This document shows positions 38,663-59,765 of a stretch of 64,000 nt of DNA, one piece after another. Source of the DNA: Terriglobus albidus (GTDB lineage Bacteria > Acidobacteriota > Terriglobia > Terriglobales > Acidobacteriaceae); contig NZ_CP042806.1 of NCBI RefSeq assembly GCF_008000815.1, forward strand, positions 5,518,001 through 5,582,000. Direction: 5' to 3'. Every line of letters begins with the position of its first letter. Positions within the stretch are counted from its first letter, which is position 1. Under the pieces are notes generated by a model. The model was given only the letters and a program-made list of their open reading frames with translations. It made no database searches and was not told the origin of the DNA. A program made the position numbers and the translations under genes.

Positions 38663-39013
38663 CTATTCGTTTGCCGGCACTGACGTAAGACTCAGGATCG
38701 ATCCCATGATGCCGGCCATACGATTCCATTTCTCCGTCTCGGCAGCCAGACGCTTGCGGCCCTGGGGCGTGAGCGAGTAATAGCGGGCGCGGCGGTTGTT
38801 CTCGCTCTCGCCCCACTCACCGCGGAGGTCCCCATCATGCTCCAGCCGATAGAGGGCGGGATACAGCGACCCCTGCTGGATCACAAGCTGATCGCCGGAG
38901 ATCTGCTGAATACGGAGCAGAACGCCATAGCCATGCAGCTTGCCGAGCGAGACCGCCTTGAGAATCAGCAGGTCAAGTGTTCCCTGGAGCAGGTCGGCGG
39001 GTTTGGGTGGCAT
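38663..39013 (-). CDS. PadR-family regulator of the second ADOP operon
   Basis: About 116 residues: 'LLQGTLDLLILKAVSLGKLHGYGVLLRIQQISGDQLVIQQGSLYPALYRLEHDGDLRGEWGESENNRRARYYSLTPQGRKRLAAETEKWNRM'. The 'GSLYPALYRLE' segment is the canonical PadR recognition-helix motif, slightly different from the first PadR ('GTVYTSLLRL'). ATG 39013 follows AAGGAG by five bases, and that AAGGAG is part of a long inverted repeat upstream. First gene of the PadR-ADOP operon. Confidence 0.92.
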   Translation of the reverse strand: MPPKPADLLQGTLDLLILKAVSLGKLHGYGVLLRIQQISGDQLVIQQGSLYPALYRLEHDGDLRGEWGESENNRRARYYSLTPQGRKRLAAETEKWNRMAGIMGSILSLTSVPANE

Positions 39014-39018
39014 ACACT

Positions 39019-39069
39019 CTCCTTGATTGTCTAGGAGAGTAGAACGGACTCTCCTAGATCGTCAAGGAG
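39019..39069 (-). promoter_or_regulatory. Long inverted repeat overlapping the second PadR ribosome binding site
   Basis: Two 22-base arms (39019-39040 and 39048-39069) match at 19 of 22 positions around a 7-base spacer; the inner ten, CTAGGAGAGT and ACTCTCCTAG, match perfectly. On the transcribed strand the last bases of the element carry AAGGAG, the ribosome binding site of PadR. Likely operator for self-repression; it could also act in RNA form. Confidence 0.65.
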
Positions 39070-39094
39070 AAGATTCTTCGGTCCCAATGAACTG

Positions 39095-39270: not shown

Positions 39271-39438
39271 TTGACATCACCATCCGCCCTGTGACACCGT
39301 ACCGGTAGCGCGCTCTGGGGCGCCTCCTGTCCGCGGCAAGGGAGAGTACTCCCACCCACCTTCAACCTGTGTTTCTGCAAGGACCTTTCATCCGGCCCTG
39401 AGCTCAGCGGACCTGGGCAATTACGGAAGGAAGGTACT
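39271..39438 (+). promoter_or_regulatory. Promoter region and candidate structured leader A of the LRR gene
   Basis: TTGACA at 39271-39276 may be the -35 box; the -10 box is poor. From 39317 the leader has GGGGCGC, GTCCGC (39329-39334), a GGGAG-AGTA-CTCCC hairpin (39340-39353) immediately followed by ACCCA, AAGGAC, and GCGGAC (39407-39412), which pairs with GTCCGC. The order matches leader B before the ankyrin gene, with compensatory changes in the hairpin. Possible cis-regulatory RNA. Inference from two copies only. Confidence 0.5.
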
Positions 39439-41355
39439 ATGTCCCGCCAGATCACGCCCTCTACCTCACTCGACAATCTGCGCCGCGAAGCCAAACGCTG
39501 GCTTGCCGCTCTGCGCGCAGAGGACCCCGTTGCGCGCGAACGTTTCACCCACGCTTATCCAAAACACACTGGAACAATGGTCCTGCGCGATGTGCAGCAT
39601 GCCCTTGCCCGCGAGTTCGATTTCGCAAGCTGGAACGAGTTGAAGCTTGCCATTCAGGAGACAGCAAAGTCCCGGACACTCGCGATGCATCAACAGGCCG
39701 CAGTGGATTTTGTCGCTGCCTACAAGGGCGACGCCGAAGCCCTGCAACGCCTGAACCGCTACTACCATCGCGAGTTCACGATGGCGGATCTCAAGGCAGA
39801 GATCTGGCGGCGCGATTATGCCTATCGCCAGCGTGCCTGGAAACGTGCCGAGGGGAAGGGGACCGACAACGAGTTCCCCCTCGAAGAAGCGCAGCTCCTG
39901 CTGGCGCAGGATGCAGGCTTCGGCAGTTGGGAGAAACTGGTCGCCGCGGTCAGCACAGGCCAGCCTCCACAAGGTGAACCGTACGCGATCGATACCAAAG
40001 ACAACCGCATCGGCCCACGCCGCCGCATGTCCGCCGCCGATTGGGACGCGCTCATTGTGGTTATGCGGGAGCAGCGCATTTCGACGCTCGACGCCAACGG
40101 ACACATGACCGACGACGCGCTCGCGAAGATCGCCTCACTCGACTTCGTCACCCGCCTGAACCTCGGCGGGTCGCGCGAGCTCACCGACGATGGCCTGCTG
40201 CACCTCGCACGTATGCCGCAGCTGGAACAACTCGACTTGAGCGAATATCCCGGCGGCAAGCTGACCGACCGCGGCCTCGAGGTATTGCGCCATCTCCCTA
40301 ACCTCCGCAAGTTCGAGATGACGTGGCAGTCGGCCATCACGGATCGCGGCGCAGCCAACCTGCGTTTCTGCGAGCTGCTGGAAGAGGTCGACCTGATGGG
40401 CTCGCCCACCGGAGATGGCGTTATTGAAGCGCTGCAGGGCAAGCCGCATCTTCGCCGCTTCAGTACTGGAAGATACGTGACCGATGCGGGCATTCCGCTG
40501 CTTCACAACTTCCCTCTGCTCAAGACACACACCGGCGAGCGGGCAAAGCTGGTGCTTGATGGGCCTTTCACCAACGCGGGCCTGCAGGCACTCGCCGGGC
40601 TCGATGGCTTGCTGGAACTCGATCTCTTCTGGCACGTCGACCGCATCACCACTGACGGCTTTGCACACCTGCTCAAGCTGCCCCATCTCGAATCGCTCGG
40701 CTGCGATGGACGACTCAGCGACAACGTCGCGCTGCAACACATCGGAACCATGCCCCGGCTGAAGCGCCTGCGGATTCAGGAGGCTGCCGCCGATGATGAT
40801 GGCTTTATGGCTCTGGCACGGTCGCAGAGCATTGAACAGATCTGGGGACGCATCTGCGAACACTTCGGCAACCGCGGCTTTCTCGCTTTCTCCAAAATGC
40901 CGGCGCTACGCAACCTCGGCATCGGCTGCAGGAATGTCGACGACGCCACGCTTGCCTCGCTGCCTGACTTCCCTGCATTGCGCGAGCTGACGCCGATCGA
41001 CTTCACCGACAGCGGCTTCCGCCACATCGGTCGGTGTCGCCTGCTAGAACACCTGAGCTGCATGTACTGCCGCGAGACCGGCGACGCCGCTACTGAAGCG
41101 ATCCAGATGCTGCCGCTGAAGCACTACTATGCCGGCCTGACACAGATCACCGACAGCAGCATGGAGTTTCTCAGCAGGATAGAAACGTTAGAGAAGATCG
41201 AGTTCTACGAGTGCCTAAAGATCACCGATGGCGGTCTGCCATTCCTCGCGAAGCTACCACGGCTGCGCGAAATCCATCTCGACCACTTACCCGGAGTCAC
41301 GCTGGATGGAACCAAAGTGTTCGGACCCGAGGTCAACGTCTACTACTCCACGTAG
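39439..41355 (+). CDS. Leucine-rich-repeat protein with ankyrin-family-type N-terminal module
   Basis: About 638 residues. N-terminal ~210 residues: 'SLDNLRREAKRWLAALRAEDPVARERFTHAYPKHTGTMVLRDVQHALAREFDFASWNELKLAI' and a second 'LAQDAGFGSWEKLVAAV'. This [ARE/Q.GF.SW..L] motif is the short head found on many acidobacterial ankyrin and LRR proteins. From ~230 onwards come repeated LRRs with the 'LTDDGLLHLARMPQLEQLDLSEY', 'LTDRGLEVLRHLPNLRKFEM', 'DAGIPLLHNFPLLKTH', 'TTDGFAHLLKLPHLESLG' pattern, giving about a dozen units. No catalytic motif, signal peptide or helix. Probably a cytosolic protein-binding scaffold. Its leader resembles that of the ankyrin gene downstream. Confidence 0.82.
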   Translation: MSRQITPSTSLDNLRREAKRWLAALRAEDPVARERFTHAYPKHTGTMVLRDVQHALAREFDFASWNELKLAIQETAKSRTLAMHQQAAVDFVAAYKGDAEALQRLNRYYHREFTMADLKAEIWRRDYAYRQRAWKRAEGKGTDNEFPLEEAQLLLAQDAGFGSWEKLVAAVSTGQPPQGEPYAIDTKDNRIGPRRRMSAADWDALIVVMREQRISTLDANGHMTDDALAKIASLDFVTRLNLGGSRELTDDGLLHLARMPQLEQLDLSEYPGGKLTDRGLEVLRHLPNLRKFEMTWQSAITDRGAANLRFCELLEEVDLMGSPTGDGVIEALQGKPHLRRFSTGRYVTDAGIPLLHNFPLLKTHTGERAKLVLDGPFTNAGLQALAGLDGLLELDLFWHVDRITTDGFAHLLKLPHLESLGCDGRLSDNVALQHIGTMPRLKRLRIQEAAADDDGFMALARSQSIEQIWGRICEHFGNRGFLAFSKMPALRNLGIGCRNVDDATLASLPDFPALRELTPIDFTDSGFRHIGRCRLLEHLSCMYCRETGDAATEAIQMLPLKHYYAGLTQITDSSMEFLSRIETLEKIEFYECLKITDGGLPFLAKLPRLREIHLDHLPGVTLDGTKVFGPEVNVYYST

Positions 41356-41368
41356 TGTTCTATAGACA

Positions 41369-41560
41369 TCGAGCGAAGCTCGAGCTGTTTTGCTTAAGGG
41401 CACGGCTTCAGCCGTGCCGTATGTGGACCAGAAAGCTCGCGGCTTTAGCCGCTGAGGGCATGGTCTGCGTACCTCAGCGGCTAAAGCCGCATCTCTTTTT
41501 GCTTTTGTGCGGCACGGCTGAAGCCGTGCCCTTAAGCAATACACTCGAGCGAAGCTCGAA
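41369..41560. repeat. R2 palindromic repeat, two facing units
   Basis: 'TCGAGCGAAGCTCGA', then 'GCTTAAGGGCACGGCTTCAG' and its CCGTGCC partner, 'GCGGCTTTAGCCGCTGAGG' and the mirror set ending 'CCTTAAGC' and 'TCGAGCGAAGCTCGA' again. The long inverted pair lies downstream of the LRR gene and could act as a bidirectional terminator. Confidence 0.8.
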
Positions 41561-41599
41561 CGCCTACTCATGCTTCGCATGAGTAGGCACTAAGCTTAC

Positions 41600-42328
41600 T
41601 TACTTGTGTGCAGTCAACGGGCGAATCTTGATGTTGCGGAAGTAAACGACGTCGCCGTGGTCCTGCAGCAGGATGTGCCCATCGGAAGCATCGCCAAAGC
41701 CTTTGAAGTCCTTGAACTTGCTCTGCGCCAGGGCCTCCCGGAAGGTCGGCGAGGTGCGGTCATACTCCAGCACCTTCACCCCGTTGAGCCAGTGTTCAGC
41801 GTGATTGCCGCGCACCACGATGCGCGCTGTGTTCCACTCACCGATGGGACGCGTTGGCTTGTTCTCTGCCGCCGGCAGAATGTCATAGAGCGAGGCCGTC
41901 TTGCGATCGCCGTTACGTCCGAGCTTGGCATCGGGGTGCACATCGTCATCCAGCAGCTGGTACTCAAAGCCAATGACGGAGTGCGCCGCCTCATTCACCT
42001 TGTCGTTGACGAAGTACTTCACGCCGCTGTTGGCGCCGCGCGTCAGCTTGAAGTCAACGGTAAGTTCGAAGTCGCCGAAGATATCGTCCGAAACGACATC
42101 GCCCTGGTGCGACTCCGAGGACCGCAGATGCAGCACGCCGTCCTTGATCTCTGCGCCGTCCACCGGCACGTTCGTACCCTTGGCGCTATGCCATCCCTGC
42201 ATCGAGGCGCCATCCCACAGCAGCCGCCAACCGGCAGCCTTTTCCTTGGGAGAGAGGGTGTTGTTCTGCGCGTAGACGGCAGGCACGAGAAGAAGCAACA
42301 GGGCAGGAGCGGTAAATAGCGATTTCAT
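41600..42328 (-). CDS. Secreted DUF1080 (3-keto-disaccharide hydrolase-like) protein
   Basis: About 242 residues. A signal peptide ('LFTAPALLLLLVPAVYAQ') and one DUF1080 lectin-like beta-sandwich: 'GWRLLWDGASMQGWHSA', 'VDGAEIKDGVLHLRSSESHQGDVVSDDIFGDFELTVDFKLTRGANSGVKYFV', 'GFEYQLLDDDVHPDAK', 'SLYDILPAAENKPTRPIGEWNTARIVVRGNHAEHWLNGVKVLEYDRTSPTFREALAQSKF', 'GHILLQDHGDVVYFRNIKIRPL'. Related proteins cleave 3-keto-glycosides or bind carbohydrate. Start ATG 42328 gives the signal peptide. It lies between the LRR and ankyrin genes in the opposite direction. Confidence 0.9.
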   Translation of the reverse strand: MKSLFTAPALLLLLVPAVYAQNNTLSPKEKAAGWRLLWDGASMQGWHSAKGTNVPVDGAEIKDGVLHLRSSESHQGDVVSDDIFGDFELTVDFKLTRGANSGVKYFVNDKVNEAAHSVIGFEYQLLDDDVHPDAKLGRNGDRKTASLYDILPAAENKPTRPIGEWNTARIVVRGNHAEHWLNGVKVLEYDRTSPTFREALAQSKFKDFKGFGDASDGHILLQDHGDVVYFRNIKIRPLTAHK

Positions 42329-42372
42329 AGGAATCCAATGGTACACGCACTCAACTATCCCTTTGCAAACGC

Positions 42373-42529
42373 TTGACGCCCGCCGGCTCCCGCACTACGC
42401 TGATGCCAGCGCGAGGGGCGCATCCAGTCCGCGGAAAGGGCCGTGCCCACCCATTTACACAACTGAAGGACGAACCTTCTTTCAGCCTGATCTGTGCGGA
42501 CTCCAGGCACGCCGTGAAAGGAGATTCGC
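42373..42529 (+). promoter_or_regulatory. Promoter and candidate structured leader B of the ankyrin gene
   Basis: TTGACG (42373-42378), a 17-base spacer and TACGCT (42396-42401) form a reasonable promoter. The leader then has GGGGCGC, AGTCCGC (42426-42432), GGGC-CGT-GCCC (42438-42448) followed by ACCCA, an AAGG-ACGAA-CCTT hairpin and GCGGACT (42496-42502), pairing with AGTCCGC. The order and several sequences match leader A upstream of the LRR gene. Confidence 0.5.
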
Positions 42530-43873
42530 ATGTTTCCCAATCCGCAGGACGCCCTTCCGCAACCCGCCCGCCTCAGCCTGGAACAATACCGCAAGCTCGC
42601 CAAGGACCTGGTTAAGGTCTGCAAAACCGGAGACCCAGAAGCCATCCACAACCGCATCACCCTATGGATTCGCGACCTGGTAAGCCATAGCGGCCTCGAC
42701 CTCACACCCACCCTTCCGGTTGCCGTCGAAGGTTGGATCGACGAGATCACAATCTTCACCACACAAACACTGCTCAACGGCAAGCGCACCTGCGCGCTGA
42801 CCGATGCGCAGTTCGTGATTGCGCGTTCCCATGGATTCGCAAGCTGGCCAAAGTTCATGCAACACATCGAGCAGGCCAGTGTCGTTACGTCTGCGGTCGC
42901 AGAGTTTGAGGCAGCCGCTGACGCCATCATCTGCGGCGACCTGGCAACGCTGAAACGGCTGATCGAGAAAAACCCCAGTCTGGTGGGGCAACACTCCACT
43001 CGCGAACATCACGCGACTCTGCTGCACTACACCTCTGCCAATGGAGTGGAAGGCTATCGCCAGCGAACCCCGGCCAATATTGTTGCCATCGCGGAGTTCC
43101 TTCTGGAAGCCGGTGCGCAGATCGATGCCGAGGCCGATGTATATGGCGGCGGATGCACCACGCTTGGCCTGGCAGCCACGAGTGTTCATCCTGAAACAGC
43201 AGGCGTGCAGGAGGCACTACTGCAGCTCCTGCTCGATCACGGCGCGCAGATCGAAAAGCCAAACCTCGCCGGCAATGGCACAGGCGCTGTCGTCTCCTGC
43301 CTGGCGAATGGACGGTTGCAGGCTGCTGTCTTTCTTGCCTCGCGAGGCGCGCACCTCGATCTTGAAGGCGCAGCTGGTGTGGGCAGGCTCGATACAGTGA
43401 AGACTTTCTTCGACACATCCGGACAATTGCTGGCGCCTGCAACCAAACGCCAACTGCAGAAGGGATTTCTCTGGGCCTGCATGTACGGATGGAACGATGT
43501 CGTTGTCTTTCTGCTGGATCATGGCGCGAACGTGCGCGATCCCGCAGAGACCGGCGCCACCGGCCTGCACTGGGCCGCCGGCGGAGCGCATCTTGGCATC
43601 GTCAAACATCTGCTGCTTGCCGGCTCTTCACTGGAGGACCTCAACCGCTGGGGAGGCACGGTTCTGGAACATGCGGGATACGGCCTCGAACACAACACCG
43701 CAAACGCCGACTTCGCTGCAACCTTTGAAGCATTGCTGGCAGCAGGCGCAGCAATACGCGGTCCGGAAGTTCCGGGATCCTGGCTGCGATGGATCGACCG
43801 GCTGAAAGATCTCCCTGCTGCGCAGAAAAATAGGATTGCCGAGATTTTTCGCCGCTATGCGTCAACTCGATAA
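42530..43873 (+). CDS. Ankyrin-repeat protein
   Basis: About 447 residues. The N-terminal part ('LSLEQYRKLAKDLVKVCKTGDPEAIHNRITLWIRDL', 'LTDAQFVIARSHGFASWPKFMQHIE') carries the same [AR..GF.SW] motif as the LRR protein. From ~130 it has ankyrin repeats: 'ADAIICGDLATLKRLIEKNPSLV', 'HHATLLHYTSANGVEGYRQ', 'IVAIAEFLLEAGAQIDAEADVYGGGCTTLGLAA', 'LLQLLLDHGAQIEK', 'DVVVFLLDHGANVRDPAETGATGLHWAAGGAHLGIVKHLLLAGSSLED', 'GTVLEHAGYGL'. No signal peptide: likely a cytosolic binding protein. AAAGGAG lies before the ATG. No neighbouring catalytic gene explains its role. Confidence 0.88.
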   Translation: MFPNPQDALPQPARLSLEQYRKLAKDLVKVCKTGDPEAIHNRITLWIRDLVSHSGLDLTPTLPVAVEGWIDEITIFTTQTLLNGKRTCALTDAQFVIARSHGFASWPKFMQHIEQASVVTSAVAEFEAAADAIICGDLATLKRLIEKNPSLVGQHSTREHHATLLHYTSANGVEGYRQRTPANIVAIAEFLLEAGAQIDAEADVYGGGCTTLGLAATSVHPETAGVQEALLQLLLDHGAQIEKPNLAGNGTGAVVSCLANGRLQAAVFLASRGAHLDLEGAAGVGRLDTVKTFFDTSGQLLAPATKRQLQKGFLWACMYGWNDVVVFLLDHGANVRDPAETGATGLHWAAGGAHLGIVKHLLLAGSSLEDLNRWGGTVLEHAGYGLEHNTANADFAATFEALLAAGAAIRGPEVPGSWLRWIDRLKDLPAAQKNRIAEIFRRYASTR

Positions 43874-59670: not shown

Positions 59671-59765
59671 TATTAGCGCTGAAGGCGCGTTCTATACCAG
59701 CCTGGGGCAACGCCCCAGGTACAGCGCGCACAAGATGTTAAAGGGCTGAAGGCCCGCTCTATATT
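59671..59765. repeat. R5 repeat, second copy (inverted)
   Basis: 'GCGCTGAAGGCGCGTTCTATA', 'CTGGGGCAACGCCCCAG' and 'GGGCTGAAGGCCCGCTCTATA' match the R5 copy at 4560-4650 on the other strand. Confidence 0.75.

Follow-up and report, generated by a model that had tools for sequence, protein, structure and literature searches.

The window analysed here is a stretch of 64,000 nucleotides (nt) of Terriglobus albidus contig NZ_CP042806.1, and all coordinates below are positions in it. On its plus strand, a leucine-rich repeat (LRR) gene (39439-41355) and an ankyrin gene (42530-43873) are each preceded by a related 5' leader, referred to as leader A and leader B, respectively, and each encodes a protein beginning with a domain of the same family, which we call the head. 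Per matches to protein and head models, the LRR protein carries a head (39439-39669), a weaker second copy directly behind it (39697-39957; 34.6 bits), and then leucine-rich repeats, and the ankyrin protein carries a head (match 42560-42880) followed by ankyrin repeats. A similar doubling of the head was also seen in two Nonomuraea proteins. A first reading of the window (the original prediction) had noticed the shared leaders and proposed that they form an undescribed cis-regulatory RNA. By comparison of homologues, the leader is shown here to be a conserved structured RNA with compensatory changes.

Structure and covariation of the leaders

All of the motifs quoted for the two leaders were located, namely GGGGCGC (39317 and 42415), GTCCGC (39329 and 42427), GCGGAC (39407 and 42496), and the hairpins GGGAG-AGTA-CTCCC (leader A) and GGGC-CGT-GCCC (leader B) followed by ACCCA, and the spacing from GGGGCGC to ATG is 122 and 115 nt as claimed. 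The leaders align in blocks (GGGGCGC, TCC, GTCCGCGG, AAGGG, ACC, ACCTT, CCTGA, and GCGGAC), with unrelated linkers and flanks. From 5' to 3', the main form of the leader, about 125 nt long, consists of a hairpin P1 (GCNN..NNGC), the GUCCGC strand of a pseudoknot (PK1), GG-NNA, a hairpin P3, A-CC(U/C), a variable linker, an anti-Shine-Dalgarno (anti-SD) strand, a hairpin P5 with GCGGAC in its loop, the Shine-Dalgarno (SD) strand, and AUG. The last bases of the P1 loop (NAGG, NGGG) pair with bases behind P3 in a second pseudoknot (PK2), and the anti-SD and SD strands form a helix, P4, which hides the SD sequence just ahead of AUG and is capped by P5.

In leader A, P1 is GCGC-TCTGGG-GCGC (39310-39323; structure parse and covarying pairs), and its loop holds the 5' strand of PK2, UGGG (39316-39319; parse, shuffle test, and covariation), whose partner CCCA lies at 39355-39358 (parse and shuffle test). 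The 5' strand of PK1, GUCCGC (39329-39334), has its partner at 39407-39412, per the sequence and the compensated variants given below, and P3 is GGGAG-AGUA-CUCCC (39340-39353; sequence, parse, and covariation). The anti-SD strand CCUUUCAUCCG (39384-39394) and the SD-containing strand CGGAAGGAAGG (39424-39434), which precedes the ATG at 39439, make up P4 (sequence and P4 duplex test), and P5, GCCC..GGGC (39395-39418; sequence and covariation), presents GCGGAC (39407-39412) in its loop. Leader B has the P1 hairpin GCGC-GAGGG-GCGC (42409-42421; parse), with a loop GGG able to pair with CCC at 42450-42452 (PK2), the PK1 strand GUCCGC (42427-42432; sequence) with its partner at 42496-42501, and the P3 hairpin GGGC-CGU-GCCC (42438-42448; sequence and parse). 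Its anti-SD strand CGAACCUUCUUUC (42471-42483; seed alignment and P4 duplex test), its P5 hairpin GCCUG..CAGGC with GCGGAC (42496-42501) in the loop (42485-42508; alignment and covariation), and its SD strand GAAAGGAGAUUCG (42516-42528; sequence and P4 duplex test) lead directly to the ATG at 42530. A single fold of leader B also gives an alternative hairpin, CUGAAGG/CCUUCUUUCAG (42463-42485), which would free the SD sequence; its family-wide support is weak, and we treat it as a feature of a sub-group.

The fold proposed in the original prediction thus held in part. GTCCGC and GCGGAC do pair, but rather than closing the structure as an outer stem they join GTCCGC, as a pseudoknot, to a second hairpin (GCC..GGC) whose loop holds GCGGAC, and AAGGAC, although found in both leaders, is not conserved across the family. 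That fold lacked the P1 hairpin, the pairing between its loop and the CC in ACCCA, and the helix formed by the anti-SD and SD strands.

Support for the structure comes from alignment A5, which holds 70 matches from 80 stretches of named genomes, three of them 13-bit chance matches. Over seven helices, 93.4% of its cells are paired, compared to 42-50% in slid controls. Of 34 pairs, 22 show double-sided changes; double-change cells number 310, where shuffles gave 94.6, and these changes recur across phyla, in keeping with the earlier claim that the stems differ in sequence yet stay paired. None of 500 shuffles reached as high on any of five measures, where the shuffle control leaves relatedness in and A5 was fitted to the covariance model's own helices except for PK1 and PK2. 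PK1 is invariant in A5 by design, since the scan that supplied these stretches demanded GUCCGCGG and GCGGAC and variation in PK1 cannot show in them. Among leaders not selected for PK1, both-sided changes were found by eye: ACCCGC/GCGGGU (L057), GGUUCGC/GCGAACC (L083 and L085), GACUCGC/GCGAGUC (L315), and GCCCGC/GCGGGU (L320). RNAalifold, run on a plain MAFFT alignment, recovered P1 and PK1 but paired the 5' strand of P3 with P5.

A structure parse began from 165 of 176 RNA matches, from which the weak matches L162 and L077 were removed and duplicates merged, leaving 154 leaders, 150 of which were parsed at the 3' side. The 100% pairing of P1, P3, and P5 in this set reflects selection by the parser and is excluded as evidence. 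For PK2, loop and tail positions were set from P1 and P3 with PK2 ignored. At position 3, 148 of 154 leaders have a pair (AU, GC, GU, CG, or UA), where the maximum in 2000 shuffles was 123, and at position 4, 115 have one (maximum 77); slid by one base, these two positions are paired in 45 and 49 of 154, respectively. Positions 1 and 2 are nearly invariant. For the 150 P4 duplexes, the mean energy with the leader's own partner was -15.05 kcal/mol, compared to -11.0 kcal/mol for swapped partners and -11.62 kcal/mol for the best of 100 swaps.

Both ends of the RNA are also marked. Counting matches rather than regions over 163 upstream regions, 121 TANNNT matches begin 15-12 bases before P1, compared to 61 at the other 71 positions, and 54 of 61 TTGAC matches begin at -40 to -35 from P1. 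Because a -10-like box sits just before P1 in most, the start of the RNA is very likely at P1 or immediately ahead of it, and judging from these positions the fixed-distance promoter seems to be part of the unit formed by leader and head. Leader B has TTGACG, a 17-nt spacer, and TACGCT at the expected distance (42373-42401; sequence and promoter scan), the -10 box beginning 13 nt before P1; leader A has a clear -35-like box only (TTGACA, 39271-39276; sequence and TTGAC position statistics), with no clear -10 box. At the other end, the in-frame start codon nearest the end of the model sits exactly there in 120 of 163 cases, which together with the SD strand in P4 places the predicted element upstream of genes and over the ribosome-binding site, where a cis-regulatory RNA would be expected.

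Family size, spread, and a compact sister class

The pattern GTCCGCGGNAAGGGN{0,25}CCACC occurs at 3 places in the 6.4-Mb host genome (reversed control, 0) and at 40 places in 30 of 200 genomes comprising the host's own and its relatives (reversed control, in 3 genomes). Of 32 loci taken from these 40 places, own genome included, 29 have the whole leader; the others (L015, L023, and L026) are chance matches to the pattern in which the remainder of the leader is missing. A covariance model, R1, was built from the 29 leaders with helices P1, P3, P4, and P5 but not the pseudoknots. R1 matched 48 places, 7 of which are seeds of the model; they lie in 34 of 396 genomes of Acidobacteriota and represent many families. 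Such a search had been suggested in the original prediction, and the further homologues it returned do carry compensatory changes.

A pattern scan of named genomes, requiring GUCCGCGG and GCGGAC, gave at least 120 stretches; R1 confirms 104 of 120, and the other 16 look like chance. Per genome names, the confirmed stretches (at least 104) come from Acidobacteriota, Actinomycetota, Pseudomonadota, Gemmatimonadota, Verrucomicrobiota, Planctomycetota, and Armatimonadota, with at least one each from Chloroflexota, Latescibacterota, Bdellovibrionota, and Eisenbacteria and at least two that are myxobacterial or deltaproteobacterial. Among the matches listed, the scan thus adds about ten phyla to Acidobacteriota. 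The main leader is also found on plasmids of Methylosinus (62.7 bits), Gemmatirosa (59.1 bits), and Variovorax (48.5 bits). A weak copy (L328; 23 bits; GGUCCGC...GCGGACC) on a Pseudomonas sp. plasmid stands near an integrase gene, and the gene behind it encodes a DUF1835-domain protein that includes a head-like stretch.

Genes joining a head to a VOC-like body have a shorter leader of about 75 nt, comprising GUAGG, GCGC, a hairpin CGGC..GCCG, P3 (GGGC..GCCC), and A/G-CC-UAC, and ending with GCGC-like bases directly ahead of AUG. The annotation "VOC family protein" is present in three plasmid records and was elsewhere assigned by reading the sequence. By eye, this compact leader was recognised at 19 loci, some of them nearly identical to one another (among the loci are L089, L093, L099, L305, L306, L312-L314, L317, L318, and L321-L325), including plasmid genes of Bosea, Phyllobacterium, Rhizobium, and Sinorhizobium. 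Thirteen of the 19 were aligned (alignment A9), leaving outside L090, L092, and L321/L326 and the duplicates L093 and L307. In A9, pairing is 100% for GUAGG/CCUAC and for both hairpins and 96% for GCGC with the start region just before AUG, with a few double changes, and P3 never varies; a competing CUACG/CGUAG helix is weak, at 69% paired. As read from their sequences, the compact and main classes have the P3/PK2 core in common, and in each class the strand on the 5' side of P3 extends to the ribosome-binding region. A possible third leader type, AGGG...AAGAG..CACCCU, was seen at three loci (L308, L309, and L311) before genes of about 200-300 amino acids with a head-like stretch.

The head domain and its linkage to the leader

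The head is an N-terminal domain of about 85 residues with the consensus LPxRPxLexLkkQAKxLL...LxDAQxxiAReyGFxSWpxLkxhV (models A4 and A8; QAK...SW in short form) and is common to the leader-linked genes. The original prediction had noticed that the two encoded proteins share a short N-terminal motif. Its most conserved residues use synonymously varying codons, indicating that the head is conserved as a protein. A repeat or coding artefact is ruled out by this variety together with the position of the start codon. The predicted fold has four helices (mean predicted local distance difference test score, pLDDT, of 83). Searches against named families gave weak matches only, and a PDB sequence search gave few matches, including designed proteins, ribosomal L17, and apolipophorin, with no gain. 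Defence-system models matched the leader-linked proteins frequently, but these look like generic ankyrin models.

For 165 of 176 distinct RNA matches, a head lies immediately downstream on the same strand, and none of these 176 had a head in the upstream or reverse-strand frames that were examined. The 11 without a head, counted with broken frames left unmended, comprise three 13-bit chance matches (L141:2842, L162, and L159:2809), one contig end (L142), two damaged or weak RNAs (L074 and L077), two cases in which the frames look broken (L115 and L222), and three further cases (L108, L113, and L221). In the host genome, all three head genes have the leader and the three ankyrin genes without a head have none, which speaks against linkage to ankyrin rather than to the head. 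In the 396 genomes of Acidobacteriota, 45 of the 48 RNAs are accompanied by a head gene (head E <= 1e-6), and 31 of 35 heads of at least 80 bits have the leader. In 30 genomes of other phyla, picked for holding the pattern, the counts are 37 of 42 RNAs and 20 of 20 such heads. In the class of Nonomuraea typhae (197 genomes), RNA and head occur in the same 13 genomes, with 16 RNAs and 16 head genes adjacent one to one (Fisher p 1.4e-20, relatedness ignored). Leader and head distances are also correlated (Mantel r 0.226; permuted maximum 0.10; n=78), and leader and head do go together, in agreement with the suggestion that they may have moved as one unit.

Behind the head, bodies vary. Ankyrin repeats are found in 72 of 84, single cases are RibB-like, Lon substrate-binding, beta-lactamase-like, SnoaL-like, and methyltransferase-like, and LRR and TIGR03067 domains also occur. 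As far as sequence can tell, the leader is strictly linked to one domain, as an autogenous leader requires, with weaker heads often lacking the leader.

Interpretation and comparison with known systems

We propose that the leader is a cis-regulatory RNA controlling translation, acting as an OFF switch with the head as its likeliest effector, a reading that we hold to be about as probable as all others taken together. Comparison shows that the P1 loop and the bases behind P3 pair through PK2 into a compact core and that the GUCCGC strand can pair with the P5 loop through PK1, P5 in turn capping P4, whose 3' strand is the SD sequence. In the OFF state, the core would be stabilised and PK1 would hold P5 and P4 closed, so that translation is off; in the ON state, PK1 would be lost and the SD sequence free, and in leader B the alternative hairpin could then hold the anti-SD strand. 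The effector would most likely be the head made by the gene itself, which by binding the core would repress its own synthesis; autogenous control by the head is favoured because, in two leader architectures, the leader goes with the head and with neither the body nor any pathway, and we put its being the effector at roughly an even chance. Promoter, RNA, and head might then constitute a portable cassette that regulates itself and is joined to bodies of several kinds, ankyrin, LRR, and VOC-like ones among them. This broader picture, in which the head recognises its own leader and any fused body comes under translational self-regulation, possibly tuned by what the body senses, with one core in at least two leader architectures spread over more than 10 phyla, is one we entertain more tentatively, as somewhat short of an even chance.

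Several results weigh against this interpretation. Single-sequence folding of the leaders was no better than shuffles (z of 0.53 and 0.05 for the leaders and of 1.12 and -0.88 for shorter pieces), and the evidence for structure is comparative. PK2 finds no support at position 5 (74 paired, shuffle maximum 76) or position 6 (33 of 83, mean 34). The anti-anti-SD hairpin is weak family-wide (-4.79 with its own partner, against a mean of -4.11 and a best of -4.46 for swapped partners; mean z -0.44), so that a two-state switch remains a proposal, and the hairpin is kept as a sub-group feature only. From the side of the head, linkage is partial, with an R1 leader at 45 of 73 head genes (E <= 1e-6) in the 396 Acidobacteriota genomes and at 37 of 45 in the 30 genomes of other phyla. 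Weaker heads mostly go without, the leader being present at 2 of 11 heads of 45-65 bits and 4 of 17 of 30-45 bits in Acidobacteriota and at 1 of 6 and 4 of 6, respectively, in the other phyla; several heads with no R1 match carry a diverged or compact leader. Since the heads behind models A4 and A8 were themselves linked to the RNA, the association is in part conditioned. Lastly, Foldseek with the head model gave 14 matches to solved structures, none at E <= 0.001 (best E 5), and the net charge of the head averages only +3.8; with a predicted four-helix fold that matches no solved RNA binder, the head-binding step is unproven.

The main alternative is an orphan metabolite riboswitch, in which the P1/P3/PK2 core would bind a small molecule or ion and the heads would act on or respond to that compound. 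A pseudoknotted core on an SD-hiding platform is typical of riboswitches, the core letters are nearly invariant (GUCCGCGG, AGG..CC.CC), in part as imposed by the search patterns, and a near-exclusive tie to one gene type has a precedent in the yjdF motif RNA, an orphan cis-regulatory RNA that, according to PMC4793209, accompanies a single gene family of unknown function with few exceptions. Nevertheless, the bodies have no common pathway and no metabolic or transport theme, the shared part being the head, and, leaving aside L113, L221, and a 33-bit match (G592:C343), no leader was seen before an intact headless gene. We regard this as a serious possibility, albeit one that is rather more doubtful than not.

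Two further accounts fare worse. A helix that only limits or heat-gates translation, with no specific effector, would agree with the strongly conserved SD pairing, and P4 alone would do for it. RNA thermometers are simple SD-hiding helices with little conservation elsewhere, whereas here the P1/P3/PK2 core is conserved; neither two pseudoknots and a nearly invariant core kept across many phyla nor linkage to one protein domain would be needed, and we consider a thermometer or static attenuator improbable. Finally, the likeness of the leaders could stem from recent copying of the promoter region within a mobile or duplicated DNA unit, with no RNA element. Promoter, leader, and head do co-occur, their distribution over phyla is patchy, and some copies are on plasmids, but the linkers and the sequence outside the leader do not align and the helices stay paired while their letters change; these compensatory changes contradict such a reading, and leaders A and B each belong to a sub-type also present in other phyla. 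Recent duplication, which the original prediction had raised against itself, fails for want of alignment outside the conserved blocks, and we deem it very improbable.

If the head does bind its leader, as proposed, the two would be an RNA-protein pair shuffled among unrelated proteins as a control module; if it does not, the leader would be a new candidate for an orphan riboswitch, whose clear set of genes could direct the search for a ligand. In both cases, a widespread RNA class outside Rfam 15 and tied to a nameless domain offers a handle on many bacterial ankyrin and LRR proteins of unknown function.

Three features lie elsewhere in the window. A long imperfect inverted repeat (TCTCCTTGATTGTCTAGGAGAG / CTCTCCTAGATCGTCAAGGAGA, 39018-39070), noted by eye, adjoins a PadR-family regulator gene (38663-39013, minus strand) on its upstream side and may, judging from this position, be the operator of that regulator. 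Past the LRR gene, at 41377-41560, are large intergenic inverted repeats (GGGCACGGCTTCAGCCGTGCC and relatives) with chance sub-cut-off microRNA matches in Rfam. An Acido-Lenti-1 RNA (RF01687; 39.7 bits, above the gathering score) lies at 59675-59719 on the minus strand.

That RNA was the sole match at gathering score of Rfam 15 to the window; nothing was found at either leader at E <= 5, and in 34 homologue loci the place of the leader had no match at E <= 1. Among the titles and abstract openings listed in literature searches (ankyrin or Acidobacteria with cis-regulatory or candidate structured RNAs), none described the leader, the 2017 survey of 224 motifs and the supplements of papers lying outside the coverage, and the word "ankyrin" is absent from the main text of PMC11109978, PMC2864571, PMC8632094, and PMC7266159. 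The RNA is new to Rfam and to the searchable literature, and, with that survey outside the coverage, its designation as undescribed is supported.

Among named protein families, the head shows a weak likeness to Glyoxalase_8 (PF20066; 6 of 24 heads, best E 0.0015) and to PRK05973 (NF004629; 7 of 24 heads, best E 2.7e-6). As for the RNA, the leaders of ribosomal-protein genes are likewise structured 5' leaders, each belonging to a single protein, and their effector is the gene product, as is suspected here; they differ in that no ribosomal or other RNA-binding fold was matched by our head, which sits in accessory genes of patchy distribution. The SAM-II, preQ1-II, and SAM/SAH riboswitches control access to the SD sequence through a pseudoknot, a logic in common with the leaders in the window, which have no Rfam match at E <= 5. 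The Acido-1 and Acido-Lenti-1 motifs are structured RNAs of Acidobacteria that are tabled "n" for cis-regulatory in PMC2864571, and Acido-Lenti-1, unlike the present leaders, sits elsewhere in the window. Similar to the yjdF motif, as described in PMC4793209, the present leaders would be an orphan cis-regulatory RNA tied to one gene type; unlike it, they match no Rfam family, and the unit to which they are linked is a small N-terminal domain carried on several kinds of body.

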